This document shows, in pieces, positions 3,352-46,665 of a DNA stretch of 64,000 bases. The DNA comes from Bacteroidia bacterium (GTDB lineage Bacteria > Bacteroidota > Bacteroidia > B-17B0 > Aurantibacillaceae). The position numbers and the translations under genes were made by a program. How positions within the stretch are numbered: the stretch's first letter is position 1; each line of letters opens with the position of its first letter. The notes under the pieces were generated by a model, which saw only the letters and a list, made by a program, of their open reading frames with translations, was not told the origin of the DNA and made no database searches. The DNA lies in contig JAIOZA010000001.1 of the NCBI GenBank assembly GCA_021740825.1, positions 62,001 through 126,000 on the forward strand, read 5' to 3'.

Positions 3352-3368
3352 AATTTTTTTAAGCGAAC

Positions 3369-4196: not shown

Positions 4197-4349
4197 GTAT
4201 AAAGGTTTTAGTTATTTAATTTACGCTAATAACATACAAAAGTAGTCAAATTAATGATATTTAGTGCTTTATAAAAATAATTTTCAAGAATAGCGTGTTA
4301 ATTAAATAAATTTACCGATATTTGCAGCCCAAACTTAAAAAATAATAAA

Positions 4350-4868: not shown

Positions 4869-4885
4869 TTCTAAATTTAAGATAC

Positions 4886-4921
4886 AAAAAACCCGATATG
4901 TTAAATCATATCGGGTTTTTT
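4886..4921 (+). terminator. Rho-independent terminator after rpsP
   Basis: aaaaaacccgatatg-ttaaat-catatcgggtttttt, 15-bp stem with T tract. Confidence 0.9.
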
Positions 4922-4966
4922 ATTTACAATCGCTAATGTTCTAAATTATTGGTAATTCCTGCTAAT

Positions 4967-13435: not shown

Positions 13436-14710
13436 TTAATCAACAAATAAAGGATATTTACTCATCATCGTGTTAATTTTCGCTTTCAATTTTGCTAATT
13501 CTTTAGGATTATCTTTATTTTTTAAAGCAGCATCAATAAATTCAACCACCTTTAAACAATCTTTTTCTTTTAATCCTCTGCTTGTAATGGCAGGCGTTCC
13601 AATACGAATACCAGAAGTAACAAATGGAGATTTATCATCAAACGGCACCATATTTTTATTGACTGTAATATCTGCTTCTCCTAAGGTTTTTTCGGCTTCT
13701 TTACCAGTTAATTTTTTACTGCGCAAGTCAATTAACATACAGTGATTATCAGTACCACCCGAAATAATTTTATATCCTTTTTCAATTAAGGCTTTTGCCA
13801 TGGTTTGTGCATTTTTAATAACCTGCACACAATACATCATATAACCATCACTTAAACATTCTCCATATGCAACAGCCTTAGCTGCAATTACGTGCTCTAA
13901 AGGTCCACCTTGTGTTCCTGGAAACACACCCATGTCTAAACAAGCACTCATCATTTTTAATTCTCCTTTAAGTGTTTTCTCGCCCATTGGATTTTCAAAA
14001 TCTTTACCCATCATAATCATTCCGCCTCTTGGTCCACGTAATGTTTTGTGAGTTGTAGTTGTTACAATATGACAGTGAGGTAATGGGTCATTTAAAATAC
14101 CTTTTGCAATTAATCCTGATGGATGAGAAATATCTGCTAATAATAAAGCACCAACGCTATCTGCAATTTTACGTAAACGAACATAATCCCAATCGCGAGA
14201 ATAGGCAGATGCACCGCAAATTAACATTTTTGGTTTTTCTTTTTTTGCAGTTGCTTCTACTTTATCATAATTTACTAAACCTGTTTTTTCATCAACACCA
14301 TAAAATGTTGCGCGATATAATTTACCTGAAAAATTTACTGGAGAGCCATGAGTTAAATGGCCTCCATGAGATAAATCAAAACCTAAAATTGTATCTCCAG
14401 GTTTTAAGCAAGCTAACATCACTGCAGCATTTGCCTGTGCTCCTGAGTGTGGCTGAACATTTACCCAAACAGCACCAAATAATTCTTTAGCTCTATCAAT
14501 AGCCAATTGTTCTACTTTATCAACTACTTCGCAACCACCATAGTATCGTTTACTGGGAAGACCTTCCGCATACTTATTAGTTAATACGCTACCCATTGCC
14601 TTCATTACCTGATCGCTCACATAATTTTCGCTTGCAATTAATTCTATACCGCGGGTTTGACGATCTTTTTCTTCTTTAATTAATTTAAAAATAGCAGTGT
14701 CTTTTTTCAT
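13436..14710 (-). CDS. glyA: Serine hydroxymethyltransferase
   Basis: [49 protein letters not shown]. Confidence 0.97.
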
Positions 14711-14721
14711 GTTAAATAATA

Positions 14722-15198
14722 TTATTGTTGAGTTTGAAACTTATTGTATAGCTTGCTTGACGCAATAATGAAAAAGCAAACCAAAGGTGATTGTGCAATG
14801 CCCATTAACCAGCGGCTAAATGTGTATTCGTCGCCTCCTAGTTGATTATTAATAAGAAAATTATAGCCCATTGATAAAGTAGACAAAGCTAATAATAATA
14901 GATAGATATAAGTAACCCAGAGGGTGTTTTTTTTATGCATACAGATGCACTTCACTGCAAAATAAGTTGTGAAAAAATATGCAAAAAAATAAATAACTGT
15001 TAAAAGATACTTGAAGTAGTAAAGTGTTTGGTAATCAAAATCACTTAATATCGTTATGATGCTTGGCAGCACGTAATCCGTATTTTTATAAAATAATGCA
15101 AAAAGTTGAGCATTGATATTGACAAATAAAAACTCTCTGCTAAAACCTATTACTGCAAAGATTAAAATAAAACCAAAATATTTAAAACTATGCTTCAA
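14722..15198 (-). CDS. Exosortase F system-associated membrane protein
   Basis: Multi-[15 protein letters not shown]-terminal motif; immediately downstream of the exosortase gene. Confidence 0.75.
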
Positions 15199-15201
15199 TT
15201 T

Positions 15202-15723
15202 CTAATTGTCGGAAAATTTATTGACCCATAACATCCACAGAACAAATACCGCGCTGTAAGCTAAAAATGTAAACGTATAAGTATGATTAAAATCTAAATA
15301 ATTTGGGTTATAATAAGCAATAAGTGCTAAAGCTATAATTCTTAAAATATTAATAATATGTACAATTAAAATTCCAGTTGGTATGTACCATAGTTTATTT
15401 TTATTATTTCCTGGGTAAGCAATAACAAAAATTGCAAATAAAAACATTAACGTAATACCATTGCATGGTCCACCAATCCAAACGCCATTTGATCCATCTA
15501 TTCCAAATACCTGAAAATCATTTACCTCCTTACTGGCAAATGTTTTATATCCAAGTAAATCAAAAATCCCCTGACACAAGTTAATTATCTCTCTGATAAA
15601 TAATTGATCACCTCTTGTATTTCGCTTTATTATAAATTCATATAAAAAATAACAAGTACCATATAATAATGATGATTTTATTATGAAAATATGAAATTTA
15701 TTTAATTTTAGATTACTAAACAT
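15202..15723 (-). CDS. xrtF: Exosortase/archaeosortase family protein, XrtF-like
   Basis: Multi-TM with Cys/Arg/His pattern GPCNGITLMFLFAIFVIAYPG, HIINILRIIALALIAY, FNHTYTFTFLAYSAVFVLWMLWV. Confidence 0.85.
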   Translation of the reverse strand: MFSNLKLNKFHIFIIKSSLLYGTCYFLYEFIIKRNTRGDQLFIREIINLCQGIFDLLGYKTFASKEVNDFQVFGIDGSNGVWIGGPCNGITLMFLFAIFVIAYPGNNKNKLWYIPTGILIVHIINILRIIALALIAYYNPNYLDFNHTYTFTFLAYSAVFVLWMLWVNKFSDN

Positions 15724-15730
15724 AATTAAA

Positions 15731-15751
15731 AACCCTCCATAATGGAGGGTT
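15731..15751 (-). terminator. Hairpin terminator/attenuator between the PID-tail gene and xrtF
   Basis: aaccctcca-taa-tggagggtt, 9-bp perfect stem followed on the minus strand by a T run, ending 8 nt before the xrtF ATG. Confidence 0.7.
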
Positions 15752-15759
15752 AAATGAAA

Positions 15760-15969
15760 TTAAAGTGCTTTTTTTTCTTTTCTTTTAAAGTATAGCTTTT
15801 TACCACCATAAATTGCTCCAGCAGCAACCAATAATGATATTCCTCCATCAATTGGAATGCAGGGAGGTGGCCAACAAACTGGTGATCCACCTGTTCCAGC
15901 CGGTGGAGCTTTACATATTAATGGTACCGAGACAATAAAAATAATTAAAGCAAATAATTTAGATTTCAT
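15760..15969 (-). CDS. Small secreted protein with C-terminal PIDGG-TM-basic sorting tail (PID-CTERM-like), candidate exosortase substrate
   Basis: MKSKLFALIIFIVSVPLICKAPPAGTGGSPVCWPPPCIPIDGGISLLVAAGAIYGGKKLYFKRKEKKAL: signal peptide, ~20 aa Cys/Pro core, PIDGG, TM, basic end. Confidence 0.75.
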   Translation of the reverse strand: MKSKLFALIIFIVSVPLICKAPPAGTGGSPVCWPPPCIPIDGGISLLVAAGAIYGGKKLYFKRKEKKAL

Positions 15970-16055: not shown

Positions 16056-18437
16056 TTGTCTGATAATAGTTTTAAATCTGTGGAACAAAAAAAAAGTACT
16101 GCGCCTTTACAAATAAATGATTTTAAGATTATTTGGAGAATCATTTCTAAAAATTGGTACATTCCACTTTTAATAACCCCAATTTTTTATGTAGTTGGTT
16201 ATTTTTACGTCTATAAATTAGCAAGTATTTATCAAGCATCAGTAGAGTTATTAAAATCTAATGATGCATACATGAAAGAGAGTCTGATAACAGATAATCA
16301 AGGTTTTTACAGTTCTTCAAGTTATGTTGATAATTCTAATGAAATACGGATTATTACCTCTTTTGATATTATGAAAGAGGCAGTTGAGAAATTAAAAGAT
16401 AAATTACAAGTCTCATATTATTTAGTTGGAAGAGTGCGAACAACCGAACAATTTAGTGGTACACCGTTTAATGTAATGGTCAAAAACATTAATCCGGCAT
16501 TAATTGAAAGTACTATTTCTTTTAAAATAATTGATTTTGAGCATTATGAAATTAAGTATCTTCTCAATGGCTTGGAAATAAAAAATTCCGGTAAGTTTAA
16601 TGAAGATTTTATAAATGAAGATTTTAGCATTATTGTTAAACGAGAAAACCAGTTTGTTAGAAATACTGCAGACGGTTTGTCCTTGATAAATTATCAAATA
16701 GTTATTCACGATTTAAATAATTTAGTTTATGCATTTCAACAAAATTTAAAAGTTGTAAATCCAGATTATACAAATGTATTGGTATTAACTTTAGATGACA
16801 TTTTGCCAGAAAGAGCTATTTTGGTTCTAGATACTTTATCTAAAATATATATAGGCAAGTCCACTAAGTCTAAATTCGAAATTAATGAAAGAACAATTTC
16901 GTTTATCGACAAACAATTAGAAGAGGTGAGTTCTTCTTTAAAAGAAGTTGAGGACACCATGCAAAATTTTAAAAAACAAAAAGGGATTTTGGATTTAGAT
17001 TGGGAAAAAAATGATTTTTTTACTAAACTAGCTTCTTTTGATGGGCAAAAATCTAAATTAAAGTTAAAAATAGATGCAATTAACGATTTGGAAAAATATA
17101 TTATTGAAGACAAGGATCCGGAATTTTTGCCTCCAAATGTCTTTTTAGTTGACGATGATCGGTTTTTAACTAGCTCCGTTACTGAGCTTTATAACTTGCA
17201 AATTCAATTAAGCACTCAATTAGGTTTTTCAAAAGAGGTTAACCCAAATGTTATTGAAATTAGACAAAAAACTAAAAAGTTAAAACAAAATATATTACTT
17301 TACATAAATAATACTAGAAATGCTACAATTAAAATTATTGACAATATTAATGGTGAAGTTGAAAAATATATAGCTGAATTTAAAACAATTCAGCCAAAAC
17401 AAAGAGAAGTATCAAATATTCAACGCAAAGTATCGGTTAATGAGGGCTTATATACTTTTTTGTTACAGCAGCGCGCTAACAAGAAAATTGCAAAAGCTTC
17501 TATTGTTCCCGAAATAAAAATAATTGACAGCCCACGGAATTTGGGAGCTGTGAGTCCAGATAAGGAAAAAATTATTTCTGCTTTTTTTGCTGTTGGTTTA
17601 GCAATTTCGTTCTTTATCATCATCATTAGAATTTTATTTTTTACAACTATTCAAACAGTAGAAGAACTTAAAGAAAAAACATTTTTACCTATTATTGGTG
17701 ATTTACCCTTTCAAAAAAATATTCTAAATGTAGGAATTGCAATTGACGAAAATCCATCGTCATTTATCGCAGAAGCTTTTAGAACTTTGCGAACCAATCT
17801 GCAGTACGTAATTTTAAATTCAAATAAAAAAACAATATTAGTTTCATCAAATTCTCCGGGTGAAGGAAAAACCTTCACTACCATTAACATTGGCGCTATT
17901 TTAGCAAAGGGTGGAAAAAAAGTAGTATTGCTAGAATTAGATTTACATAAACCTCGTATACAAAAGGCATTAGAAATGAATGCAGACATTGGCATTAGTA
18001 CTTTTATGGTAGGTCAAAGTACATTAGAGGAAATTGTTAAACCCACAGTAATTAAAAATTTAAATGTCATTTTATCAGGGCCAATTCCTCCTAACCCCTC
18101 TGATTTAGTTCTTTCCGAAAAACTAAAAGAGTTAATTGAATACGTTAAAGCCAACTTTGATTATGTTTTAATTGATACACCTCCAATGGGCATGTTAGCG
18201 GATGCTAGTTATTTAATGCAGTATTCTGATATTAATTTATTTGTATTAAATACAAAATTTGCAAATAAGGCAGTTTTAAGTTTATTTCATAAATTAGTGC
18301 AGGACAATTCAATTAAGGACGTTTATTTAGTTTTAAATGGAATTAAACGTAAACGTAACAAATACTACTATTCTAAGTACGGCTATGGTTACGGCTATGG
18401 ATACGGCTATGGATATGGCTATAAAAAAAATACTTAA
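16056..18437 (+). CDS. wzc: Polysaccharide co-polymerase / BY-kinase (Wzc-like); start more likely GTG at 16080
   Basis: Wzz domain, two TMs, Walker A SSNSPGEGKTFTTINIG, A' VVLLELDLHKPRI, Tyr-rich tail YYYSKYGYGYGYGYGYGYGY. Confidence 0.93.
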   Translation: MSDNSFKSVEQKKSTAPLQINDFKIIWRIISKNWYIPLLITPIFYVVGYFYVYKLASIYQASVELLKSNDAYMKESLITDNQGFYSSSSYVDNSNEIRIITSFDIMKEAVEKLKDKLQVSYYLVGRVRTTEQFSGTPFNVMVKNINPALIESTISFKIIDFEHYEIKYLLNGLEIKNSGKFNEDFINEDFSIIVKRENQFVRNTADGLSLINYQIVIHDLNNLVYAFQQNLKVVNPDYTNVLVLTLDDILPERAILVLDTLSKIYIGKSTKSKFEINERTISFIDKQLEEVSSSLKEVEDTMQNFKKQKGILDLDWEKNDFFTKLASFDGQKSKLKLKIDAINDLEKYIIEDKDPEFLPPNVFLVDDDRFLTSSVTELYNLQIQLSTQLGFSKEVNPNVIEIRQKTKKLKQNILLYINNTRNATIKIIDNINGEVEKYIAEFKTIQPKQREVSNIQRKVSVNEGLYTFLLQQRANKKIAKASIVPEIKIIDSPRNLGAVSPDKEKIISAFFAVGLAISFFIIIIRILFFTTIQTVEELKEKTFLPIIGDLPFQKNILNVGIAIDENPSSFIAEAFRTLRTNLQYVILNSNKKTILVSSNSPGEGKTFTTINIGAILAKGGKKVVLLELDLHKPRIQKALEMNADIGISTFMVGQSTLEEIVKPTVIKNLNVILSGPIPPNPSDLVLSEKLKELIEYVKANFDYVLIDTPPMGMLADASYLMQYSDINLFVLNTKFANKAVLSLFHKLVQDNSIKDVYLVLNGIKRKRNKYYYSKYGYGYGYGYGYGYGYKKNT

Positions 18438-18463: not shown

Positions 18464-18973
18464 ATGTTGAATTGGTATGCTGTATATGTAAATGTGAAAC
18501 ACGAAAAAAAAGTGGTTCAAAAGTTATGCGATAAAGCAATCGAAGCCTATTCTCCAATTATTAAAAAAATGCAGCAGTGGAGCGACCGAAAAAAATTAGT
18601 AGAATTTCCAATGCTAAGCGGTTATGTATTTGTAAAAATAGATTTATCAAAGAAAGAGGAAGTTTTAAATTGTGCAGGAGTTTTTGCATTTATAAAGTTT
18701 AATGGCGTTGAGGCAAAAATTAAAGAATCTGATATCACTATATTAAAATCAATCGAATCAAGCGGCTATGATGTGTCAGTTGAGCCTGCAAGCTTGCAAG
18801 TAAGTGATGAGGTGGAGGTTATACAAGGTCCTTTGAAAGGACTAAAAGGAACAGTTTTCCGTTTTCAAAATAATGAGTTTGTTCAAATTGAATTAGAGAG
18901 TATTAAGCAAAATATTATAGTACAACTTCCAAAGCATAGTTTAAAAATAATTACACCAAAAATTTCTATATAA
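18464..18973 (+). CDS. NusG-family specialised transcription antiterminator (UpxY/RfaH-like)
   Basis: WYAVYVNVKHEKKVVQKL, FPMLSGYVFVKID, C-terminal KOW VIQGPLKGLKGTVFRF. Confidence 0.9.
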   Translation: MLNWYAVYVNVKHEKKVVQKLCDKAIEAYSPIIKKMQQWSDRKKLVEFPMLSGYVFVKIDLSKKEEVLNCAGVFAFIKFNGVEAKIKESDITILKSIESSGYDVSVEPASLQVSDEVEVIQGPLKGLKGTVFRFQNNEFVQIELESIKQNIIVQLPKHSLKIITPKISI

Positions 18974-19959
18974 TGTCAACAATGGTTCCAAACATAGATG
19001 CTATAAGAGGCAAGCAATTTTTAGTAACAGGCGGGGCAGGCTTTATCGGATCTAATATTGTATCATTTTTATTGAAGAATGAGGCCAAAGAAGTAAGGGT
19101 ATTAGACAATTTGTCAACAGGAAGTAGAGATAATATCATAGAATTTTTTAATAACCCAGCATTTAGTTTTATTGTAGGAGATATTACTGATTATGATACA
19201 TGTTTTAGTGCTTGTAAAGAAATTGATGGCATCTTTCATAATGCGGCATTAGGCTCGGTGTCGAGAAGTATGCAAGACCCTATGGCAACTAATCAAGCAA
19301 ATGTGTCTGGATTTGTAAATATATTGTTTGCTGCAAAAAATCAACAAGTAAAAAGAGTGATATACGCGTCTTCATCATCTGTTTATGGAGATGATGAAAG
19401 TATAGAAAAGCAAGAGCATATCACAGGTAACCTACTATCACCCTATGCTGTATCAAAAAAAACAGATGAATTATATGCTGATGTATTTTCAAGGTCTTTT
19501 AATATGGAAATTATTGGATTGCGATATTTTAATGTATTTGGACCTAAACAAAATCCAAATGGTCAGTATGCAGCGGTAATACCAATTTTCATTGGTAATC
19601 TATTAAAAGAAATAAAGCCTTGCATTTTTGGAGATGGCAGTACAAGCAGAGATTTTACATACATTGATAATGTTGTTTATGCAAACGCACTAGCTTTTTC
19701 TTCAGAAAACACGAAATCTATTAATCAAATTTATAACGTGGCTTTTGGATCGTCTACAAGTTTAAACCAATTATATAATTTAATAGCAGTTACTTTAGGA
19801 AGTAATATAATTCCTGAATACAAAGCTGAACGAAAAGGCGATATTAAAAATAGCTTAGCAAATATTAATAAAGCTAAACAATTATTAGGTTATCATCCTT
19901 TAGTCAGTTTAGAAGTTGGAATGAGTTACACCATCGATTGGTATAAAAAACATCTATAA
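18973..19959 (+). CDS. NAD-dependent epimerase/dehydratase (UDP-GlcNAc 4-epimerase-like SDR)
   Basis: FLVTGGAGFIGSNIV, YASSSSVYGD, SPYAVSKKTDELYA. Confidence 0.9.
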   Translation: MSTMVPNIDAIRGKQFLVTGGAGFIGSNIVSFLLKNEAKEVRVLDNLSTGSRDNIIEFFNNPAFSFIVGDITDYDTCFSACKEIDGIFHNAALGSVSRSMQDPMATNQANVSGFVNILFAAKNQQVKRVIYASSSSVYGDDESIEKQEHITGNLLSPYAVSKKTDELYADVFSRSFNMEIIGLRYFNVFGPKQNPNGQYAAVIPIFIGNLLKEIKPCIFGDGSTSRDFTYIDNVVYANALAFSSENTKSINQIYNVAFGSSTSLNQLYNLIAVTLGSNIIPEYKAERKGDIKNSLANINKAKQLLGYHPLVSLEVGMSYTIDWYKKHL

Positions 19960-20088
19960 TTCTTTCCATTAAATTAATTTTAAAGAATTTTATTTTAACA
20001 ATTATAAGTTATCTACAAACTTATTTTCATTTGTGATAATGTTCAAAACCAGTGTTAAGTGTTAAATTTGTTGAAATATTTTAATTAA

Positions 20089-20643
20089 TTGAGTAAATTT
20101 GTTACTCAATTAATGATTCAGACACTCATATCATCAAAAACTAGAATAAAATTACTACTTAAATTTTTTTTAAATAGTAATACAACCGCCTATTTACGTG
20201 GGTTAGAAGAGGAATTTGGCGAATCTACTAACTCAATACGTTTAGAGTTAAATCGCTTCGAAAACGCTGGTTTTTTAGAATCTTATAGCGAATCCAATAA
20301 AAAAGTGTTTAAAGTAAATGTAAAACACCCTTTGTTTAAAGATATTAATAGCATTGTTTTAAAATTGGTAGGTTTAAATTACGTAATTGACTACGTTTTG
20401 AAACATATGGGAGATTTAAAGCTCGTTTATTTAGTGGGAAATTTATCTAAAGGAAAAGATTCAGATGTTATTGATTTAGTTTTAGTGGGAGATATTAACG
20501 AACCTTTTTTAATACAATTAATTGTTAAGACGGAAAAGAAAATAAATAAAAGAATAAATTACATTCATTATAAAGAAATTGATTTTAATTTAAAAAACAT
20601 AACAATTGTGGGAGTTAGCCCACTTTTATTATGGAGTAAATAA
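20089..20643 (+). CDS. Winged-helix regulator with degenerate nucleotidyltransferase-like domain
   Basis: N-term ArsR-like HTH (STNSIRLELNRFENAGFLESYSE), C-term YLVGNLSKGKDSDVIDLVLVGD. Confidence 0.75.
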   Translation: MSKFVTQLMIQTLISSKTRIKLLLKFFLNSNTTAYLRGLEEEFGESTNSIRLELNRFENAGFLESYSESNKKVFKVNVKHPLFKDINSIVLKLVGLNYVIDYVLKHMGDLKLVYLVGNLSKGKDSDVIDLVLVGDINEPFLIQLIVKTEKKINKRINYIHYKEIDFNLKNITIVGVSPLLLWSK

Positions 20644-20651
20644 ATTGATAA

Positions 20652-20791
20652 TTATTCTTTGAATTTGTTGAAACATACAATTTCAATATTAGAGTCCACT
20701 TAGTAGATTGTGACTATGGTGGCGAAGCTATAAGTAAACAAAAAAATTGGATTATACAGTCATTAAAAAAAAATTACAGTTCAATAAATTA
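20652..20791 (+). pseudogene. Possible 3' remnant of a lost gene
   Basis: Stop-to-stop frame without a start codon but protein-like: LFFEFVETYNFNIRVHLVDCDYGGEAISKQKNWIIQSLKKNYSSIN*. Confidence 0.35.
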
Positions 20792-20799
20792 ATTAAACT

Positions 20800-21411
20800 A
20801 TGATTGTTATTGTTGATTATGGCCTAGGGAATCTTGCTTCAGTTTTAAATATGTTTAAAAAGATTGGCGTAAAGGATGTTTTGATCTCTGGAGACATAGA
20901 TGTAATTGCAAAGGCTTCAAAGTTAATATTACCTGGCGTGGGGGCTTTTGATGCTGGAATGACTTATTTAGAAGAATCTCAACTTATAACTATATTAAAT
21001 CAAAAAGCAATAATAGAAAAAGTGCCAGTACTTGGGATTTGTTTGGGAATGCAGCTATTAACGAAGCGAAGTGATGAAGGTACAAAAATTGGCTTAGGGT
21101 GGATTGATGCGGAAACCATTAAATTCAATATGGAACCCGAGTTAAAATTAAAAGTCCCTCATATGGGTTGGAATTACATTAAAGTACTAAAGAAAAACCC
21201 ACTAATTGATATGGAAAGTAATAATAGGTTTTATTTTGTTCATTCGTTTTATGTAAAGTGTTTTGATGAAAGTCAATCGATCGCAACGAGTAATTTTGGT
21301 ATAGATTTTACTTGTATGGTTAATAAAGGAAATATTTACGGGGCACAGTTTCATCCAGAAAAAAGTTTAAAATTTGGTATGAAAGTTTTAGAAAACTTTG
21401 CTAAATTATAA
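20800..21411 (+). CDS. hisH: HisH-type glutamine amidotransferase subunit of the sugar-amidine pathway (HisH2/WbpG partner)
   Basis: VDYGLGNLASVLNMFKKIG, VLGICLGMQLL, FHPEKS. Confidence 0.9.
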   Translation: MIVIVDYGLGNLASVLNMFKKIGVKDVLISGDIDVIAKASKLILPGVGAFDAGMTYLEESQLITILNQKAIIEKVPVLGICLGMQLLTKRSDEGTKIGLGWIDAETIKFNMEPELKLKVPHMGWNYIKVLKKNPLIDMESNNRFYFVHSFYVKCFDESQSIATSNFGIDFTCMVNKGNIYGAQFHPEKSLKFGMKVLENFAKL

Positions 21412-22166
21412 TGGCTCTTAAACGTATTATACCTTTTTTATTATATGATGGAAGCGGTTTAGTTAAAACCGTAAAGTTTAAAAATCCATCCTATATTGGC
21501 GATCCAATTAATGCCATTAAAATTTATAATGATAAAGAAGTAGACGAACTTATTTTGATTGATATAAATGCAAGTAAGCAAAAGCGTAAACCACATTTCG
21601 ACAAGATAGCTGACATGGCAAGCGAAGCTTTTATGCCTTTTGCTTATGGTGGTGGAGTAAAAACATTTGAAGATTTCGCGAAGCTTTATAAGATTGGGGT
21701 AGAAAAAGTAATTGTAAATTCACTAATACAAGAAAATCCTGAAGTAATTAAAAAAGTAATTTCCCAATATGGTTCTCAAGCCGTTGTTGCTTGTGTAGAT
21801 TTTAAGAAACCGTTATTTGGTCCAAAAAATGTATTCTCATATATCGGCCGTAAAATTAAATTTAACTTGAATGAATATATTTCCTATTTAGCTAATGACA
21901 TTGGGGTTGGTGAATTGATGTTGTATAGTGTCGATAAGGATGGTACATGGGAAGGTTATGATGTTGATATTATTGAAGAATTAATAAATATTGTGGATAT
22001 TCCTGTAATTGCCTGTGGCGGCTGTGGAAGCATTACTGACTTGAAACATATCTTATATAAATCCAATGTAAATGCGGCAGCTATTGGAAGCATGGCCGTG
22101 TATAGCAAAAAAGGAATGGGGGTGTTAATTAATTTTCCAAAACGAGAAACTATAATTATTGAATAG
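21411..22166 (+). CDS. HisF-type cyclase paralogue (HisF2, sugar-amidine pathway)
   Basis: LKRIIPFLLYDGSGLVKTVKFKNPSYIGDPINAIKIYN; Asp normally in the CLDV motif is replaced (PFLLY). Confidence 0.9.
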   Translation: MALKRIIPFLLYDGSGLVKTVKFKNPSYIGDPINAIKIYNDKEVDELILIDINASKQKRKPHFDKIADMASEAFMPFAYGGGVKTFEDFAKLYKIGVEKVIVNSLIQENPEVIKKVISQYGSQAVVACVDFKKPLFGPKNVFSYIGRKIKFNLNEYISYLANDIGVGELMLYSVDKDGTWEGYDVDIIEELINIVDIPVIACGGCGSITDLKHILYKSNVNAAAIGSMAVYSKKGMGVLINFPKRETIIIE

Positions 22167-23016
22167 GATGCAAAAGAAAGAACATTGGGATTTAACAATT
22201 AAGCCACATTCTAAGTGGTATGATTTAAGATTGGGAGAGATTTTTCGGTATAAGGATTTATTGTTTCTATTTGTTCGAAGAGATTTTGTTTCAGTATATA
22301 AGCAAACCATTTTGGGGCCTATTTGGTTTTTTATACAACCTATTATTACGACTATTACTTTTTCTGTTATTTTTGGAAACTTAGCGCATATATCAACAGA
22401 TGGTTTACCTCCTGTTTTATTTTATATGTGTGGCATTACTTTGTGGAGTTATTTTTCTGATACCCTTTCTAAAACTTCAGACACATTTACTACCAATTCA
22501 GGCATTTTTGGTAAAGTTTATTTCCCTCGAATGATAGTGCCATTATCAGTAGTAGTTTCTAACTTAATTAAATTGGTAATTCAGTTTGTTTTGTTTTTGA
22601 CAATATGGCTTTATTTTTTTGTTAAAACAAATCAGGTGCATCCAAATGGAACTATCGTTTTAATTCCCTTTTTAATCTTGTTAATTGGTTTCATGGGGTT
22701 AAGTTTTGGTATCATTATATCATCATTAACAACTAAATACAGGGACTTAAAATTTTTAGTGACTTTCGGAATTCAATTAATGATGTACGCTTCACCCATT
22801 GTTTATCCTTTGTCTATTGTGTCCGAAAAATATAAGTGGATTATTTTAGCCAATCCTGTAACCAGTATTATCGAAACATTTAAATATGCGATGCTAGGTG
22901 TTGGGGAATTTAATTGGATGTATTTAGGCTATAGCATTGCATTTACAACTGTATTGTTTTTTATTGGATTAATTATTTTTCACAAAGTAGAAAAGTCTTT
23001 TATGGACACTGTTTAA
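22159..23016 (+). CDS. wzm: O-antigen/polysaccharide ABC transporter permease (Wzm-like)
   Basis: RRDFVSVYKQTILGPIWFFIQPI, ASPIVYPLSIV, NPVTSIIETFKYAMLG. Confidence 0.92.
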   Translation: MNRMQKKEHWDLTIKPHSKWYDLRLGEIFRYKDLLFLFVRRDFVSVYKQTILGPIWFFIQPIITTITFSVIFGNLAHISTDGLPPVLFYMCGITLWSYFSDTLSKTSDTFTTNSGIFGKVYFPRMIVPLSVVVSNLIKLVIQFVLFLTIWLYFFVKTNQVHPNGTIVLIPFLILLIGFMGLSFGIIISSLTTKYRDLKFLVTFGIQLMMYASPIVYPLSIVSEKYKWIILANPVTSIIETFKYAMLGVGEFNWMYLGYSIAFTTVLFFIGLIIFHKVEKSFMDTV

Positions 23017-23019
23017 CGA

Positions 23020-24297
23020 ATGAGTAATGTAGTATTAAAAGCAGAAAACATTGCAAAACAATACCGCTTAGGTCAACTAGGAACTGGTACAATCTCTCAT
23101 GACTTAAACAGATTGGTAGCAAAACTAAGAGGCAAAGAAGATCCCTATTTGAAAATTGGTGAAGCTAATGATAGAAGTCAATTTGGCGGTAGCGATTATG
23201 TGTGGTCGTTAAAAGACATAAATTTTGAAGTAAAGCAGGGAGAGGTATTAGGAATTATTGGGAAGAATGGCGCAGGAAAATCTACCTTATTAAAAATATT
23301 ATCGCAAGTAACAACGCCAACAACCGGGCAAGTTAAAGTAAAAGGACGTATTGCCGCTTTACTGGAAGTTGGTACCGGCTTTCATCCTGATTTAAGTGGG
23401 CGGGAGAATATTTTTTTAAATGGCGCTATTTTAGGAATGACTAAAGTTGAAATAAAAAGTAAACTTGATGAAATTGTTGATTTTAGTGGTGTTGCAAAAT
23501 ATTTGGATACGCCTGTAAAACGTTACTCGTCAGGTATGATGGTGCGATTGGGCTTTGCCGTGGCAGCCCACTTGGAGCCTGAGATTTTAATTGTGGATGA
23601 AGTATTGGCTGTAGGTGATGCTGAGTTTCAGGAAAAATGTTTAGGGAAAATGAAGAACGTGAGCGGTCAGGGCAGAACAGTTTTGTTTGTAAGTCACAAT
23701 ATGGCCGCTATTAAATCTCTTTGTAAACGCACTATTGTTTTAAAAAATGGAGAAACTTATTTTGACGGAAATGTTGTTGATGGTATTACAAAATATTTAG
23801 AAGCATTAAATCCTTCAATAAATAAAGGTGCAATTGAAAAACATCACCGTACAGTGAACACCGGTTTTGTTTTTATTAAAAGCGTTAGTTTGGAAAATGA
23901 AGAGTTCGCAAACGGAAATAGTATTTATTTTAATAACGAAATTGGCATAAGTTGCCAGGTTGAGTTTTTGAAAGATATATCAAATGTATTGTTTGACATA
24001 AGAATAATGAGTGCTGATGGTATTGAAATATTACATTCAATGAACATATATGAAAATAATTTTGTGGATGTGAAAAAAGGAATGGTAAATACAAATGTTA
24101 TTTTGGAAAACAGATTGCAACCCGGTAAATATTTTATTACTATTGGAGTGCATTTAAGTGATGGTCTTACTTTAGATTATCTAGAAAATATTTTAGAAAT
24201 AAATGTATTAAATGTGGCGAAAAATAATCAAAAGGGCTTGATTTATGATTTTAAATTAGGTTATGTAAGGCCTCATGCCACTTGGAAAATAAATTAA
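23020..24297 (+). CDS. wzt: O-antigen/polysaccharide ABC transporter ATPase with C-terminal sugar-binding domain (Wzt-like)
   Basis: GIIGKNGAGKSTLLKILSQ, YSSGMMVRLGFAVAAHLEPEILIVDEVLAVGD, extra ~170 aa C-terminal beta-rich domain. Confidence 0.92.
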   Translation: MSNVVLKAENIAKQYRLGQLGTGTISHDLNRLVAKLRGKEDPYLKIGEANDRSQFGGSDYVWSLKDINFEVKQGEVLGIIGKNGAGKSTLLKILSQVTTPTTGQVKVKGRIAALLEVGTGFHPDLSGRENIFLNGAILGMTKVEIKSKLDEIVDFSGVAKYLDTPVKRYSSGMMVRLGFAVAAHLEPEILIVDEVLAVGDAEFQEKCLGKMKNVSGQGRTVLFVSHNMAAIKSLCKRTIVLKNGETYFDGNVVDGITKYLEALNPSINKGAIEKHHRTVNTGFVFIKSVSLENEEFANGNSIYFNNEIGISCQVEFLKDISNVLFDIRIMSADGIEILHSMNIYENNFVDVKKGMVNTNVILENRLQPGKYFITIGVHLSDGLTLDYLENILEINVLNVAKNNQKGLIYDFKLGYVRPHATWKIN

Positions 24298-24298
24298 T

Positions 24299-25408
24299 AT
24301 GAACCAGTTTATACCTCTAGCTAAACCAAATATTTTGGAAAAAGACATAGCCTTAGTTATTGATGTTTTAAGAAGCGGAATGTTAGTGCAAGGCAAATAT
24401 GTTGATGAGCTGGAGAAGAGTTTTGTGCATAATACCGGAGCAAGTTATGCAAGTGCATTAAGTAACGGTACAGCTACTTTACATTTGGCATTAATAGCTT
24501 TAGGAATAAAAGCAGGTGATGAAGTTATAGTGCCGGCATTTTCATATATAGCAACAGCAAATGTTGTTGAATTGGTGGGTGCAAAACCTGTTTTTGTTGA
24601 CATAGATTTAGCAACCTTTAATATTGATGTTACTAAAATTGAAGCCGTAATTTCTTCAAAAACAAAAGCAATTATTCCAGTGCATGAATTTGGTTTGGCT
24701 TGCGATATTGAGGCAGTAATGGTTATTGCTAAAAAACATAATCTATTTGTAATTGAAGATTCAGCCTGTGCCTTAGGCGCTTTGTATAAAAACAAACACG
24801 TTGGTAGCTTCGGTAATTTTGGCTCATTTTCTTTGCATCCGCGTAAAGCTATTAGTTGTGGTGAAGGCGGTATGCTAATTACAAATAATTTGGATTTGGA
24901 TAAAAAAATTAAAATTTTGCGAAATCATGGTACCGAAATAATTGACGGTAAAATGGATTTTACAGAGTTTGGGTTTAATTACCGAATGACTGATTTTCAG
25001 GCAGCATTAGTAGTATCGCAATTAGACCGGTTGCAAAATAGTATTAATTATAAAAATGAATTAGCTGATATTTATTTTTCTGAGATTAAATCCGATAAAA
25101 TTCAATTGCCTTTTGTGCCCAATTACACGTCACATACATGGCAAACATTTCATGTTGTTTTAGATGAAAGTGTAAACAGAGATGAAATCATTATAAAATT
25201 AAAAGAAAATAATATTGGCGCCAATTATGGAGCTCAATGTATGCCTTATATGAAATCATTTAAGGAAAAATACAAGTATAATTGCGAAACACTTTTTCCG
25301 AATGCTTTAAAAGCTTATAAACAAGGACTTGCCTTACCTATTTATGATTTAGTAAATAAGGAACAAATAAATTATATATCTAAAACAATAAAGAATTTAA
25401 TACCATGA
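24299..25408 (+). CDS. DegT/DnrJ/EryC1/StrS aminotransferase
   Basis: [57 protein letters not shown]. Confidence 0.93.
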
Positions 25409-26355
25409 TAACAAACAAAACTATTTTTATTACAGGTGGTGCTGGCTTTATAGCAAACACACTTATTAAACATTATATAAACGACAATAAAATTGTAGTA
25501 TATGATAATTTTCATCGAGATACATTAAGCAATAGTGATGTAGCCAAACACACTAATTTAACCATTGTAAAAGGAGATGTGTTGGATTTAGTAGCCTTAA
25601 CAAATGCTATGAAAGGGGCTGATATAGTTATTCATGCTGCCGGCATTGCCGGCATTGATACAGTAATCAAAAATCCTGTGCGCACCATGCAAGTAAATAT
25701 GATTGGGACAGCTAATGCTTTAGAAGCTGCACATGTAAATAATATTACTGAGAGGTTTATTGATTTTTCAACTTCAGAAGTCTTTGGATCTATGGCCTTT
25801 AAATCATCTGAAACAGATCAAACAGTTTCTGGCAGTGCAGGTGAAGCACGTTGGACTTATGCCGTTAGTAAATTAGCCGGTGAACATTTGGCACATGCTT
25901 ACTTTAAACAATACCAATTGCCTGTTGTAACCGTAAGACCATTTAACGTATATGGACCGGGACAAACCGGAGAAGGAGCTATTCAAATTTTTATTAAAAA
26001 AGCATTGAAGAATGAAGATATTCATATTGATGGAGACGGCTCTCAAATTAGAGCCTGGTGCTTTGTTGATGATTTTGTAGATTGTTTAATTCGTTGCGTT
26101 GAAAATCCAAAAGCTATTGGCGAAAGTTTTAATATCGGAAATTCGAGAGCCGTAATCACTATTTTAGGTTTAGCGCAATTGGTGTGCCGCGTATTAAAAT
26201 CAGATTCTAAAATTTTGTTTGATCCGCCTTTGTCTGCCGATATTGCTATACGCATACCGAGTGTAGAAAAAACAAAAGAGGTTTTAGATTTTAAGGCCAA
26301 AGTAGATTTGGAAGAAGGCGTTTTAAGAACATCAGAATACATGAAAACTTTGTAA
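25405..26355 (+). CDS. NAD-dependent epimerase/dehydratase
   Basis: [44 protein letters not shown]. Confidence 0.9.
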
Positions 26356-26356
26356 G

Positions 26357-27157
26357 ATGCGGATAGTTTTTTTTGGTGCTTCTGAATTGGGTTTTGATTG
26401 TTGCAAACATCTTGTTGAACTAGGCTATCAAGTGGTTGGAATATGTACAATACCTTCTACTTTTAGCATTAAATATAAAGCTGATAGTGAAAGGCGAAAT
26501 GTACAAAATGTTTTATATAAAGATTTTTCTTATTTTAATAACAAATTTGGTATCCCTGTTTGCGTGGTGGAAACAAAAATGTCAGACTATATAGAAATTA
26601 TTGAGTTGTGGAAGCCTGACTTTATTTTAGTTATTGGCTGGTATTACATGATTCCAGAAAGAATTATGAGATTGCCAATCAAAGGAGTAGCTGGCATACA
26701 CGCATCTTTATTGCCAAAATATAGAGGTAATGCGCCACTAGTATGGGCAATGATAAATGGAGAAGAAGAAACAGGCGTTTCACTTTTTTATATTGAAGGC
26801 AATGGAGTTGATGAAGGCGATATTATTCAGCAGGATAAATTTAAAATCGAAAATTCTGATACCATTAAAGAGGTACTAGAAAAAGCAAAAATAGCATCTC
26901 TAAAAATATTGACTACATCTCTCCCTTTAATTACTGATGAAATTGCTCCACGTCTAAAACAAAATAATAGTGAAGCTACTTATTTCCCAAAAAGAAGTCC
27001 AGAAGATGGATTAATTGATTGGACGTGGGATAAACAGCGTATTAAAAATTTTGTTCGTGCGCAAACAAAACCATACCCAGGCGCTTTTACATTTATAAAT
27101 GACAAAAAAATTATAATTTGGGATGGTGATATTGAAATTATTAATAATAAAGACTGA
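26357..27157 (+). CDS. Formyltransferase-family protein (probable sugar N-formyltransferase)
   Basis: GIHASLLPKYRGNAPLVWAMINGEEETGVSLFYIEGNGVDEGDII (Fmt/ArnA-N-like catalytic region). Confidence 0.87.
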   Translation: MRIVFFGASELGFDCCKHLVELGYQVVGICTIPSTFSIKYKADSERRNVQNVLYKDFSYFNNKFGIPVCVVETKMSDYIEIIELWKPDFILVIGWYYMIPERIMRLPIKGVAGIHASLLPKYRGNAPLVWAMINGEEETGVSLFYIEGNGVDEGDIIQQDKFKIENSDTIKEVLEKAKIASLKILTTSLPLITDEIAPRLKQNNSEATYFPKRSPEDGLIDWTWDKQRIKNFVRAQTKPYPGAFTFINDKKIIIWDGDIEIINNKD

Positions 27158-28302
27158 TGCAAAACTGTAAACGCTGTATATATAATTCATCCATTCCTAA
27201 AATTTCATTTAACACAGATGGTATTTGTAATTATTGTGAGCAATACAATTCAATGAATTTACAATACCAAACAGGTGATGCAGGTGAAAAAATGATTGAA
27301 GAGTATGTTGCTCAAATGAAAAAAGATGGTAAGGGTAAACCTTATGATGTGGTAATAGGTGTTAGTGGTGGTTGTGATTCATCATATATGTTGCATTTAG
27401 CAAAAAATGTTTATGGTTTGAGAGTTCTAGCTGCTCATTTTGATAATACCTATAACTCAAAGATTGCCGTTGAAAATATAAAAATTGTATTAGATAAATT
27501 AAATATCGATTTATATACCTACGTTGTAGATAATAAAGAATTTGAGAACATTCAAAAGTCTTTATTATTAGCGTCAGTTCCAGAATTTGAAGCGGCCACA
27601 GATTTATCATTAGCAACTACACATTATATGGCATGTGCAAAATATGGCATAAAACATATATGGGAAGGACACTCATTCCGAACTGAAGGAGTATCTCCTC
27701 CAGGGTGGTTTTATATGGATGCTAAATACATTAAATCCATACATAAGCAATTCGGAGATGGTATTATTACATCAACGCCATTACTATGGTTGAGTAAATG
27801 GATAAAATGGATGGTAGTGGATAAAATAAAAAAATTCAGACCATTATATTATCTGGATTATAACAAAGAAGAAGTTAAAACTTTTTTGGCAAAAGAATAC
27901 GCTTGGCAATGGTACGGTGGACATCATATGGAAAACAGGACTGCTTATTTTATTAATAATTATTATTTGCCTGTAAAATTTGGTATTGACTTGCGCTGGT
28001 GCGAATATTCAGCTTTGGTGAGAAGTGGATATTTAACCAGATATGAAGCACTATTTAAAATTAAAGAACCGAAGCCATTTGAAAATGATTTATTAATGGA
28101 AATAAAATCACGTTTAAAATTATCGGATGTTGATTGGGAAGCAATAATGAATGCTCCTAATAAACATTATACCGATTATCCTACTTACAAAAAAACATTT
28201 GAGCGCATGCGACCATTCTTTTTTATTTTATTAAAATCAGGTTATGTTACCCAAAGTTTTTATGATAAATTTTGTGTTTTGAAAGAAGAGAAATTATTAT
28301 AA
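27157..28302 (+). CDS. N-acetyl sugar amidotransferase (WbpG-like)
   Basis: CxxC pairs CKRCIYNSS...GICNYCEQY and PP-loop GVSGGCDSSYMLHLA. Confidence 0.92.
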   Translation: MQNCKRCIYNSSIPKISFNTDGICNYCEQYNSMNLQYQTGDAGEKMIEEYVAQMKKDGKGKPYDVVIGVSGGCDSSYMLHLAKNVYGLRVLAAHFDNTYNSKIAVENIKIVLDKLNIDLYTYVVDNKEFENIQKSLLLASVPEFEAATDLSLATTHYMACAKYGIKHIWEGHSFRTEGVSPPGWFYMDAKYIKSIHKQFGDGIITSTPLLWLSKWIKWMVVDKIKKFRPLYYLDYNKEEVKTFLAKEYAWQWYGGHHMENRTAYFINNYYLPVKFGIDLRWCEYSALVRSGYLTRYEALFKIKEPKPFENDLLMEIKSRLKLSDVDWEAIMNAPNKHYTDYPTYKKTFERMRPFFFILLKSGYVTQSFYDKFCVLKEEKLL

Positions 28303-28308
28303 TTATAA

Positions 28309-29556
28309 ATGAGAATACTTATTGGCACTGTAGAAATTTGTGGGTGGATAAAAACGTTAAAAGATGAACTTGAAAAACAAGGGCATTCTGTCACCACAAT
28401 TTCTGAACCATATCATTATGCCCCAAATTATAAATACGATATATCTCATCAAAATTTTGTAAAGGATTATATTTCATATAGAATTGGTGTTAATTCTTTT
28501 TTTAATTCGATAACAATAAAATCTTATTCTTTTTTAGAAAAAATTGCTAATAAATTCTTCCCCAAAAAATTAAATAATTATGTCCTTAATAAAGCAAATA
28601 ATTATTTCTTTAAAAACACTGATGTGTTTATTTATTTTTGGAATGGTTTAACCACTAATGAAAATGACATTCTACAATTTAAAAAAAATGGTGTTAAAAT
28701 AATAACTTGGTTTGTTGGAGATGATGTTCGTTATTATCCAGCTATGCAAGAGGAATTTGAAATTAAGAATAAATTTTATGAAGGGTATTTTCAAAAAAAT
28801 TTTAATGACTTGTTAAGAAAATTACGAATACATGAGAAATATTCAGATATAATTTTTTCAGTTCCTGATCAAGCATCTTTAGCACTTAGGCCATATTACC
28901 ATCTTCAAATTCCAGTAAAAATAGAAAGGTTTCAATTTAAACAGTCAAACAATACTGTACCAATTGTTGTACATATTCCCAGTAGTCAACAAATTAAAGG
29001 AACTGCAATAATTAGAACGGTCATAAACGAACTTAAAAACGAAGGACTTAATTTTATTTATAGGGAATTAATAAATATACCAAATAGCCAGGTGTTAAAT
29101 GAACTTTCAAATGCTGATATTCTTGTTGATGAACTGTTTTTACATGGCCCCGGTGTTTTGTCATTCGAGGCAATGTGCAGTGGTTGCGCTGTTGCAACAA
29201 GGTATCTCGAAAATTCACCAATAGTTTTTCGTCCACCGGTGGTTTCAATAACAGAGGAAAACATTAAAGAAAAATTACGATTACTAATTACTAATAATGA
29301 ATTAAGAAATGATGTAATTCAAAAAGGAAAGTTATATGTTGAGGATAATAACAAGGTGGAATCAATTGTGAAAAATATGCTATCGAAACTTTCTGTAGAT
29401 ACAAAAGCAGATTACTATCCTAATTACTTCCGTGAAAATTTTGAACCACAAAATGATTTAATTGAATATGTAAATAGCATGACTGAATTTGTAAAAGATG
29501 AGACGTGGTATAAGAAGAATATTTTACCTGGTGTGAGAAACGAATTAAAATTTTAG
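28309..29556 (+). CDS. Glycosyltransferase
   Basis: GT-B style C-terminal part LSNADILVDELFLHGPGVLSFEAMCSGCAVATR. Confidence 0.65.
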   Translation: MRILIGTVEICGWIKTLKDELEKQGHSVTTISEPYHYAPNYKYDISHQNFVKDYISYRIGVNSFFNSITIKSYSFLEKIANKFFPKKLNNYVLNKANNYFFKNTDVFIYFWNGLTTNENDILQFKKNGVKIITWFVGDDVRYYPAMQEEFEIKNKFYEGYFQKNFNDLLRKLRIHEKYSDIIFSVPDQASLALRPYYHLQIPVKIERFQFKQSNNTVPIVVHIPSSQQIKGTAIIRTVINELKNEGLNFIYRELINIPNSQVLNELSNADILVDELFLHGPGVLSFEAMCSGCAVATRYLENSPIVFRPPVVSITEENIKEKLRLLITNNELRNDVIQKGKLYVEDNNKVESIVKNMLSKLSVDTKADYYPNYFRENFEPQNDLIEYVNSMTEFVKDETWYKKNILPGVRNELKF

Positions 29557-29568
29557 AAAAGGTTTTGC

Positions 29569-31317
29569 ATGTGCGGAATAGCAGGAATAATACATTTTAA
29601 TAATAAACCGGTTTTAACTGAACAGTTAAAACAAATGACTGATGTTATTGCTCACCGTGGGCCTGATGGCGAAGGATATTGGGTTAATGCAAAAAGCAAT
29701 GTTGGCTTTGGTCACAGGCGCTTATCCATTATTGATTTATCAAGTAACGGAAAACAACCTATGCATTATGCTAATAACCGGTATACGGTCACATTTAATG
29801 GCGAAATATATAATTACATTGAATTAAGAGAACAACTTATATCAAAAGGATACCTGTTTCATTCAAATAGCGATACAGAAGTTTTACTGGCTTTATATGA
29901 TTTAAAAAAAGAAAAATGTTTAGCCGACTTAGATGGCATGTTCGCATTTGCTATTTGGGACGAAAAAGAACAGGAACTATTTTGTGCAAGAGATCGTTTT
30001 GGAGAAAAGCCATTTTACTATAGCTATGAAAAAGGGCAGTATTTTTATTTTGCTTCAGAAATGAAAGAACTTTGGGCAATAGGAATATCAAAACAAAATG
30101 ACAGTGATGTATTGAATAATTTTTTGAAAACAGAAAAAGTAGTTTATTCAACTGATACAACCAAAACTTTTTATAAAAATGTAAAACAATTGGATTCATC
30201 TCACTATCTAATTATTAAAAAGAATGCAGATGTTAAAATTGAGCGTTATTATGATTTGGATAACATTCAGATAAATAGAAATATAAGTTTAAGCGAAGCG
30301 GTTGAAAAATTCACACAATTGTTTACGGAAAGTGTTCGGTTAAGACTTAGATCGGATGTCGCCGTTGGCTCTAGTTTATCGGGAGGTTTAGATTCATCGA
30401 GTATTGTAATGATGATGGACAAATTAAAAGGAGAAGCCACACAACAAAAAACGTTTTCTGCAAGGTTTAAGAGCTTTGATAAAGACGAAGGAGTTCATAT
30501 TCATAAAGTGGTTGATGCCTGTAAAAATGTTGTATGCTACGAAGTATGGCCCAAACAGGAAGAATTGCAGAAAATACTACCTGAACTTATTTTTCACCAG
30601 GAAGAACCTTTTGCATCATCCAGCGTGTTTGCCCAATGGAAAGTAATGGAATTGGCAAAACAAAATGGAACGGTTGTATTGCTTGATGGGCAAGGAGCTG
30701 ATGAATATTTAGCTGGCTATCTTCCGCTATATGGATTGTATTTGAAACAATTGTTTTTTACAGATAAGGGTAAATACAATCATGAACAGAGTATATATTT
30801 AAAATTACGAGGTAGTTTAGGCTGTACGTTAGAAGAAGATGAAACGATCAGAATGAAAATAGGTAGATTAAAGAAAAAAATTTTCAAACAGGCAATGCCA
30901 TATAATAATGAGAGTTTAACCCGTGAATTAAAAAAGCAAATGTTATCCATAGGATTAAAAGAGCTTTTAAGATATGCTGATAGAAATTCGATGGCACATT
31001 CTCGCGAAGTGCGTTTACCATTTTTGAGTCATAAATTAATTGATTTTGTTTTTTCTTTACCCGATGAATTTAAATTATTTGAAGGGTGGACAAAATATAT
31101 TTTGCGTTTATCGATGAATGATTTATTACCAAAAGATATAGCATGGAGAGTAGATAAAATAGGATATGTAACTCCTCAAAATAATTGGATGGAAAATAAT
31201 TATTGGAAAAATCAAATAGAAGAAGGGAAGAATAAATTTTCGGAATTAACTTCAACTAAAAATGGAAAAATGGAAAGTTGGAATTATATTATGTTGAATA
31301 ATTTTTTTTATAGATAA
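29569..31317 (+). CDS. asnB: Asparagine synthase (glutamine-hydrolysing)-like amidotransferase
   Basis: MCGIAGIIHF N-terminal Cys, HRGPDGEGYW, SSLSGGLDSSSIVMMM. Confidence 0.92.
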   Translation: MCGIAGIIHFNNKPVLTEQLKQMTDVIAHRGPDGEGYWVNAKSNVGFGHRRLSIIDLSSNGKQPMHYANNRYTVTFNGEIYNYIELREQLISKGYLFHSNSDTEVLLALYDLKKEKCLADLDGMFAFAIWDEKEQELFCARDRFGEKPFYYSYEKGQYFYFASEMKELWAIGISKQNDSDVLNNFLKTEKVVYSTDTTKTFYKNVKQLDSSHYLIIKKNADVKIERYYDLDNIQINRNISLSEAVEKFTQLFTESVRLRLRSDVAVGSSLSGGLDSSSIVMMMDKLKGEATQQKTFSARFKSFDKDEGVHIHKVVDACKNVVCYEVWPKQEELQKILPELIFHQEEPFASSSVFAQWKVMELAKQNGTVVLLDGQGADEYLAGYLPLYGLYLKQLFFTDKGKYNHEQSIYLKLRGSLGCTLEEDETIRMKIGRLKKKIFKQAMPYNNESLTRELKKQMLSIGLKELLRYADRNSMAHSREVRLPFLSHKLIDFVFSLPDEFKLFEGWTKYILRLSMNDLLPKDIAWRVDKIGYVTPQNNWMENNYWKNQIEEGKNKFSELTSTKNGKMESWNYIMLNNFFYR

Positions 31318-31333
31318 CAGTGCTTGTTTTTAA

Positions 31334-32584
31334 ATGAAGAATAACACACTTTTCATTTCGTTTTATTTCCCACCTTTTGCCAGAGTGGGAGGAAGACGAT
31401 GGGCAAAGCATATTAAGTACTTCCAGCGTTTCGGTGAAAAATTTAAAGTATTGGCTGGTGATTTTGAGGGAAAATCACCATGGGATGATGATGTTAAATC
31501 CTATGAATCTAAAATAACACGCCTACCAATTACTATTTATTATCCATATTATAAAAGAGTGTTGCCCAAAAATGTTTTTCAAAAAATAAAATGGAAAATT
31601 AGTTTGAAGTATAATAACTTTTTGGAAAAAAAATATCCTGGAAATTTTTGGGATGACTCGCGAGCCTACGAAAATAAATTTTATTTGAAAGCACTTGACA
31701 TTATAAAAAGAGAAAAGATTTCACATATTTGTTTATCCGTTGGTCCATTTGCATACGCTAGTATTCTGCCTAAATTAAAAAAAGAAATCACCGAATTAAA
31801 AATTACACTTGATTACAGAGATTACTGGCATGATTGTTTTGATTCTCTATCAAAAGGTAAAAGATTGGAAGAAATTCAAAAGCAGAAAAGTGTATTAAAT
31901 GTTGTTGATTTAGTTTTAGCTCCTAATAAGGAAATGTGCCACTATTTTGAAAAAGAATTTAATATAAACACCTATTTATTACCGCATTGTATTGATGAAG
32001 ATTTTTTAAGTATAACAGAAACGAAATTTGTTCAATTTGACAAAAAGCGCTATGTTATTTTATATGGAGGTAATTTATATGATAATATGGAACCTTATAT
32101 CTTAAAATTGATTAATTTAATTAAAGAGTTAAAGAAATCAGGAACAGAGGTAGAATTCAAATTATTAACGATGCAGCCATCCTATGTTGATTTGTTTAGA
32201 AAGAATAATATAAATATTGAGGTCAATTCATTATTACCGATTCCAGCATTTATTGAGTTAGCTACAAAATCGGATTTGATATTATTGATGAGGCCCGATT
32301 GGAGTCCTAATGCTTTTTCGACAAAGTTTTTTGAATCTGTTGCATTGCGTAAACCTATATTATATATTGGACCTAATGGAGAAGTGAACGAATTTATAAA
32401 AAATAATCGTTTAGGATTTATTCTAGCAGAAAATTCAGAAAAGGAAATGGCAAGTATTCTATTAAATAATGCTTTAAGTCATGATATTCCGGATACAAGA
32501 TTTTCCTTAGATAATAATACGTTTGATTTACAAACCCTTGAACTTATCAAATATTGGAATAAATATTATGGTTTTGAAAATTAA
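31334..32584 (+). CDS. Glycosyltransferase (GT4-like)
   Basis: FISFYFPPFARVGGRRWAKHIKYF, VILYGGNLYDNMEPYIL; paralogous to 43003..44238. Confidence 0.8.
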   Translation: MKNNTLFISFYFPPFARVGGRRWAKHIKYFQRFGEKFKVLAGDFEGKSPWDDDVKSYESKITRLPITIYYPYYKRVLPKNVFQKIKWKISLKYNNFLEKKYPGNFWDDSRAYENKFYLKALDIIKREKISHICLSVGPFAYASILPKLKKEITELKITLDYRDYWHDCFDSLSKGKRLEEIQKQKSVLNVVDLVLAPNKEMCHYFEKEFNINTYLLPHCIDEDFLSITETKFVQFDKKRYVILYGGNLYDNMEPYILKLINLIKELKKSGTEVEFKLLTMQPSYVDLFRKNNINIEVNSLLPIPAFIELATKSDLILLMRPDWSPNAFSTKFFESVALRKPILYIGPNGEVNEFIKNNRLGFILAENSEKEMASILLNNALSHDIPDTRFSLDNNTFDLQTLELIKYWNKYYGFEN

Positions 32585-34636: not shown

Positions 34637-34654
34637 AATTTTAATATAAAATTT

Positions 34655-37772: not shown

Positions 37773-37780
37773 AATAAATA

Positions 37781-39401: not shown

Positions 39402-39413
39402 AAGAACAGTTTT

Positions 39414-40541: not shown

Positions 40542-40662
40542 AATTTAATACGAATTGGCCATAAAATTATTAGATTACTCCATAGTAAATATGCAGCCAA
40601 AAAAACAGTGTGCTACTTTAAGTTACAAGCTGTCAATGTGCAAATTCAATATGCAATTTTAA

Positions 40663-42999: not shown

Positions 43000-43002
43000 T
43001 TT

Positions 43003-46441: not shown

Positions 46442-46665
46442 ATGAGTGCGAAAATAAATTTCTATAATTTTCATTTTATGTCCGTCCGATTAACTTAATG
46501 ACAGCAGTATTAATAAATATCCTTTAAGTGCAACATTCAATTCAAATAATAAGGGTAATTTTATAGGATTTCTTTAACGGCTATATATTGAAGGATTGGT
46601 AAATATGTAAAATAGCACAAGTATAAAAACAACTTGAAGAAATTAGATTTCATAAAGCTTAGAAT

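Follow-up and report, generated by a model that had tools for sequence, protein, structure and literature searches.

A PID-CTERM mini-protein beside an XrtX exosortase in a Bacteroidia bacterium, and the pairing of such mini-genes with T9SS cargo genes

The exosortase locus and its neighbors

The window analyzed here, a stretch of 64,000 nucleotides from contig JAIOZA010000001.1 of a Bacteroidia bacterium, carries three adjacent minus-strand open reading frames of 69, 173, and 158 residues, which the first-pass annotation had described as a minimal exosortase module with one tiny dedicated substrate. The frames are present as described and encode a PID-CTERM mini-protein (15760..15969), an exosortase (15202..15723) and a small membrane protein (14722..15198). 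Serine hydroxymethyltransferase (13436..14710, minus strand, PF00464), a conserved downstream neighbor by synteny, follows on the same strand, and a gene for a wzc-like polysaccharide tyrosine autokinase/chain-length protein diverges from the trio (16056..18437, plus strand; TIGR01007 at 154 bits, cut-off 108; start codon uncertain). This order, mini-gene, exosortase, partner and hydroxymethyltransferase on one strand with wzc divergent, is that of the window's family. The hydroxymethyltransferase gene lies same-strand downstream of the exosortase operon in many families for no obvious functional reason, and its product probably stands outside the mechanism discussed below.

The layout of the 69-residue protein, as read from its sequence, is an N-terminal signal peptide, a Pro/Gly-rich linker, the motif CWPPPC, PIDGG, a hydrophobic segment and a basic tail. 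The short core, with the two cysteines and proline cluster to which the first-pass annotation had drawn attention, spans approximately residues 20–38 and includes the motif (residues 32–37, codons at 15859..15876, minus strand), so placed that C32-W-P-P-P-C37 abuts I38-P39-I40-D41-G-G. Residues 39–69 (15763..15855, minus strand), comprising PIDGG, the hydrophobic segment and the basic end, are presumed to be the exosortase recognition tail. A search with the PID_CTERM model (NF046080), proposed earlier as a check, gave 43.0 bits against a cut-off of 26, and the signal peptide and tripartite tail of the protein are likewise those of an exosortase target. The model has 25 positions and matches the window protein from about residue 38 to 60, leaving CWPPPC outside it. 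The possibility that the signal peptide is that of a lipoprotein was rejected, as by eye no lipobox precedes Cys19, and a search for a solved structure of a relative found none. The genome (87.6% complete) contains exactly one PID_CTERM match and one exosortase match, in agreement with the single dedicated substrate proposed earlier, and no further PID-tail protein was found in it.

The 173-residue exosortase scores 180.9 bits with the XrtX model (NF046081, cut-off 170). Its Cys/Arg/His pattern corresponds to a putative active-site triad, Cys87/Arg128/His147, in which Cys and Arg are retained in all 162 aligned homologs and His in 160. The affiliation with XrtF suggested in the first-pass annotation stood only in part: the enzyme narrowly clears the XrtF model TIGR04128 (91.7 bits, cut-off 90), but its score with XrtX, the best-fitting family, is twice as high, and XrtF was rejected as a label. 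The XrtF-associated model TIGR04127 found no match in the 158-residue partner and matched only two of 29 homologs, weakly. The partner also fails the cut-off of the XrtX-associated model NF046082 (22.3 vs. 75 bits); since that model recognizes 25 of the 29 proteins encoded at the equivalent place in homologous operons, with E-values ≤ 0.01 and as low as 1e-19, the protein is likely a divergent member of this family.

The trio itself is already known, as XrtX, PID-CTERM and the partner are curated NCBI families. The window resembles the NCBIfam system (NF046081, NF046080, NF046082) in the adjacency of its three genes and in an enzyme and a tail that score above the curated cut-offs, but differs in its sub-threshold partner and in a CWPPPC core that lies outside the model. 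A further difference, seen in relatives and described below, is the pairing with T9SS cargo. The XrtF system of Flavobacteriia (Fjoh_1448/1449) likewise combines a small Bacteroidota exosortase with a small membrane partner, although Flavobacterium johnsoniae carries XrtF, which is related to but different from the window's XrtX, and no PID_CTERM match over the cut-off was found in the two XrtF-type genomes examined (G303 and G267). Deletion of xrtF or of its partner gene in F. johnsoniae abolished zorbs and strongly reduced biofilm, as did deletions of porU and porZ, and the authors of that study left the exosortase substrates for future work (PMC10936215).

Beyond wzc lies a surface-polysaccharide cluster (18464..47952, plus strand) that includes NusG-like, epimerase, ABC exporter and glycosyltransferase genes together with sugar-amidation genes of the HisH/HisF2/WbuX type. 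The amidation genes (20800-31317, plus strand) encode HisH, an HisF2/AglZ-like protein (309.3 bits, just under 310), a WbuX-type amidotransferase over its cut-off and asparagine synthase, which suggests an amidino or amide sugar in the polysaccharide.

Conservation of the mini-protein and of CWPPPC

Conservation of the small frame among relatives had been named beforehand as a point on which the first-pass annotation could fail. Of 100 related genomes, 65 contain a PID_CTERM match above the cut-off, almost all of them a single one, in frames of 63–117 residues. Given this conservation, and the position of most of these matches beside XrtX and wzc, we conclude that the mini-gene is not a chance open reading frame. 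CWPPPC or a close variant directly precedes [IV]PID in 62 of 70 loci picked by the tail model alone, and the exact motif is present in 142 of 148 distinct proteins, a set chosen in part by the motif itself. Across 56 distinct genes with the exact motif the amino acids are invariant while the Cys and Pro codons exchange freely at synonymous positions, and the amino acids are therefore under selection. A codon scan of GTDB representatives for CWPPPC[IV]P[IV]D returned at least 119 stretches, with 80 of 80 among the matches listed belonging to Bacteroidota, and the motif is kept across many uncultured families of this phylum. After a rough signal-peptide rule, the median core length of CWPPPC-type proteins is 18 residues. 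The synteny of the trio with wzc, another proposed check, was also borne out: of the 123 CWPPPC loci with a flank of 1 kb or more, 82 have a divergent wzc no more than 400 bp away, and of the 53 whose flank is long enough, 44 have one within 4.5 kb.

In a sample of 300 genomes from the phylum, 40 had both PID_CTERM (over the cut-off) and XrtX (at least 150 bits), eight had PID_CTERM alone and one had XrtX alone, counts that ignore phylogeny. Almost every PID_CTERM match over the cut-off in this sample (143/144) falls in a frame of at most 183 residues, the median being 78.5; the sole large protein with such a match has 995 residues (locus L209 of genome G263, 2118-5102). Several PID genes per genome, without CWPPPC, occur in a second class of the phylum (family f58 and neighbors) and in family f45. 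Their cores are about 10–25 residues long by eye (e.g., AQ/PGLPSAPSQA/PIDGG), and most of the genes sit far from XrtX. As the motif is absent from these multi-copy lineages, whatever role CWPPPC has cannot be general.

These distributions bear on two other readings of the mini-protein. If the mini-protein were not a substrate but a small subunit of the exosortase in the membrane, or its regulator, the position of the gene beside XrtX and a product that is mostly signal peptide and tail would be accounted for, but the tail has the tripartite layout of a target and the multi-copy genes, several per genome and mostly distant from XrtX, are distributed as expected of targets; we regard this explanation as very unlikely. 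A secreted signal or antimicrobial, to which the small size, two cysteines, proline richness and signal peptide might point, appears more improbable still, given a core that is nearly unchanged over many families instead of diversifying, and an operon with no evident immunity or receptor gene.

Gene pairing with T9SS cargo

The first-pass annotation had missed that PID mini-genes come after T9SS cargo genes, both in the multi-copy lineages and in nine families with CWPPPC other than the window's own. In the multi-copy lineages, the first four of the large genes directly upstream of PID genes to be scanned encode the T9SS sorting domain PF18962 at their end, as do 10 of 10 further upstream proteins from families f58, f36, f41, f45, and f85. 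With a T9SS tail model built from those 14 PF18962 tails, cargo was found directly upstream of 43 of 50 PID genes, mostly at −10 to +90 bp, in a count that covers PID genes with a same-strand upstream ORF, includes the seed loci and contains a few overlapping loci. The same order was observed in four of five additional loci. In one genome assembled as a single contig with 97 T9SS tails (G292), all six PID genes follow cargo, for which the probability by chance is about 5e-10. The paired cargo types include Ice_binding, lamin-tail, FG-GAP, and laminin-G proteins.

One genome, G167, joins this arrangement to that of the window: a single PID gene lies next to XrtX and further ones follow T9SS cargo genes, with one of these cargo proteins a weak homolog of the cargo found in the CWPPPC clade. 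In G211 cargo, PID and exosortase genes form a single run. Within the CWPPPC clade, a T9SS-tailed protein of up to about 1700 residues is encoded directly upstream of the mini-gene in at least 20 loci, with wzc farther out where it is seen. Eight of nine such upstream proteins scanned clear the T9SS type A cut-off, and these cargo proteins are mostly homologous to one another. The order T9SS cargo, PID gene, XrtX extends over nine other families of the window's class, with the cargo tail over the cut-off in f6, f7, f8, f20, f24, f25, and f31 and below it in f30 and f34. Large upstream frames in several high-GC loci (e.g., L103, L108, L111, L129) resemble spurious antisense ORFs and were left out of the cargo count.

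Three further lines of argument were considered and set aside. SprA is encoded in all PID-positive genomes of the phylum sample, a co-occurrence too general, and too confounded by phylogeny, to prove a link to the T9SS. Within genomes, peptide and cargo co-vary weakly (p 0.018), and linked duplication confounds the signal. The notion that PID mini-genes are cargo ends that were split off was rejected because the mini-proteins carry signal peptides themselves and the cargo proteins still end in T9SS tails of their own.

In the window itself, the place directly upstream of the PID gene is taken by the divergent wzc, not by a T9SS cargo gene. In two genomes of the window's genus (G004 and G012), a cargo homolog with a T9SS tail over the cut-off is encoded on the same strand 25–32 kb upstream of the PID gene, with the polysaccharide cluster between this cargo and the PID operon. 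The matching cluster end in the window (gene 46666-47952) leads into other genes, and no homolog of the relatives' cargo was found in the window genome, at 87.6% completeness; on the proposal set out below, the peptide would have to serve other cargo or one encoded in the unassembled part. The genome does have a T9SS, with a full-length SprA and, at E ≤ 0.001, 112 type A tails. Among sugar genes close to the end of the cluster at which sister genomes carry the cargo gene lies an ORF6N-domain gene (49243-49770, minus strand). The ORF6N domain is known from mobile elements, and this gene may be a trace of the event by which the cargo gene was removed.

It is against this gene order that a tie of the peptide to the polysaccharide has to be weighed. 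The first-pass annotation had proposed a peptide anchor or cap for the surface polysaccharide encoded next door, and its interpretation as a whole is partly supported. If the peptide were an anchor, primer or cap for the neighboring polysaccharide only, with no functional tie to the T9SS, the divergent wzc of most CWPPPC loci and the evident production of a surface polysaccharide by the window's cluster would be readily explained, but not the multi-copy PID genes, which follow T9SS cargo and mostly have no polysaccharide genes seen beside them, nor the nine other families in which cargo stands between the PID gene and wzc, where wzc is seen. We consider this reading rather unlikely, and the polysaccharide to be, at most, a further partner of the peptide.

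Gene pairing is not proof of physical partnership, as co-regulation would yield operons too. Adhesin, PID, exosortase and polysaccharide genes might simply be co-expressed biofilm genes and the peptide have a separate role in the envelope, an explanation that operon structure alone fits equally well and with which the weak, confounded co-variation noted above agrees. Co-regulation of one pathway does not, however, predict separate PID copies each behind a different cargo gene, as in the six-of-six case of G292, and we judge it unlikely to be the whole explanation.

Proposed role of the peptide and its significance

At the level of gene order and model scores, XrtX is thus paired with a tiny target, and the target with T9SS cargo genes. 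The occurrence of PID genes after T9SS cargo in multi-copy lineages and in nine CWPPPC families suggests that the peptide works with T9SS surface proteins. The reading we prefer, with moderate confidence, is that XrtX processes one dedicated mini-peptide that serves T9SS surface proteins, maybe as an anchor or docking partner. The mini-protein would be exported by Sec and lose its signal peptide, after which XrtX, through Cys87/Arg128/His147, would cut at the PID tail. By analogy with other sorting enzymes, the resulting Pro-rich peptide of ~10–20 residues would then be attached to a lipid or glycan that bears an amine. In this form it may act as a small anchor or docking partner and help to hold a T9SS adhesin, and possibly the neighboring polysaccharide, at the cell surface.

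The processing and transfer steps have parallels in the GlyGly-CTERM/rhombosortase and archaeosortase A systems, which share the tripartite C-terminal tail, although rhombosortase has an unrelated fold, archaeosortase is a distant homolog, and both act on targets of ordinary size, not on mini-proteins. Single-target rhombosortase systems, with target and enzyme encoded side by side, have been termed dedicated systems (PMC3237569). A lipid-linked ethanolamine has been proposed as the acceptor for archaeosortase A (PMC7157517), and the rhombosortase product, as cited in PMC7468200, carries a glycerophosphoethanolamine-containing moiety.

For the step of surface retention, the closest comparison is type B T9SS cargo, whose localization is set by a PorP/SprF partner encoded downstream (PMC12618676; PMC9143113). 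The two arrangements share a partner gene placed after the cargo gene, with a product that determines, or in our proposal would determine, localization; they differ in that the PID gene product is a mini-protein with an exosortase tail, the cargo paired with it carries a type A signal, and its role as a partner is a proposal. The window holds such a type B pair (54291-55798, minus strand), a CHU_C-tailed protein of 182 residues followed by a PorP/SprF-like partner, with which the proposed cargo-partner logic can be compared in the same stretch of DNA.

Twin-cysteine motifs of SprF and PorG form disulfides to GldK (PMC12635249), and by analogy a disulfide role for CWPPPC is conceivable. One extension of our proposal, which we regard as doubtful, is a relay in which a lipid- or glycan-linked peptide made by XrtX at the inner membrane would act as the acceptor, or as a CWPPPC disulfide clamp, that fixes T9SS type A adhesins, an alternative to direct transfer by PorU onto A-LPS.

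To our knowledge, it is not settled how type A T9SS proteins are retained other than by A-LPS systems of the Porphyromonas type. No papers on PID-CTERM or XrtX, and none tying exosortase mini-targets to T9SS cargo, were found in the largely open-access literature searched, and it is the pairing of mini-targets with T9SS cargo that would be new. Exosortase substrates that are nearly exclusively mini-proteins, encoded beside genes for T9SS surface proteins, would connect two cell-surface sorting systems. The pairing of cargo and PID genes makes both the question of exosortase substrates and that of type A retention testable in a genetically tractable T9SS host, and the invariant CWPPPC peptide offers a defined chemical target.
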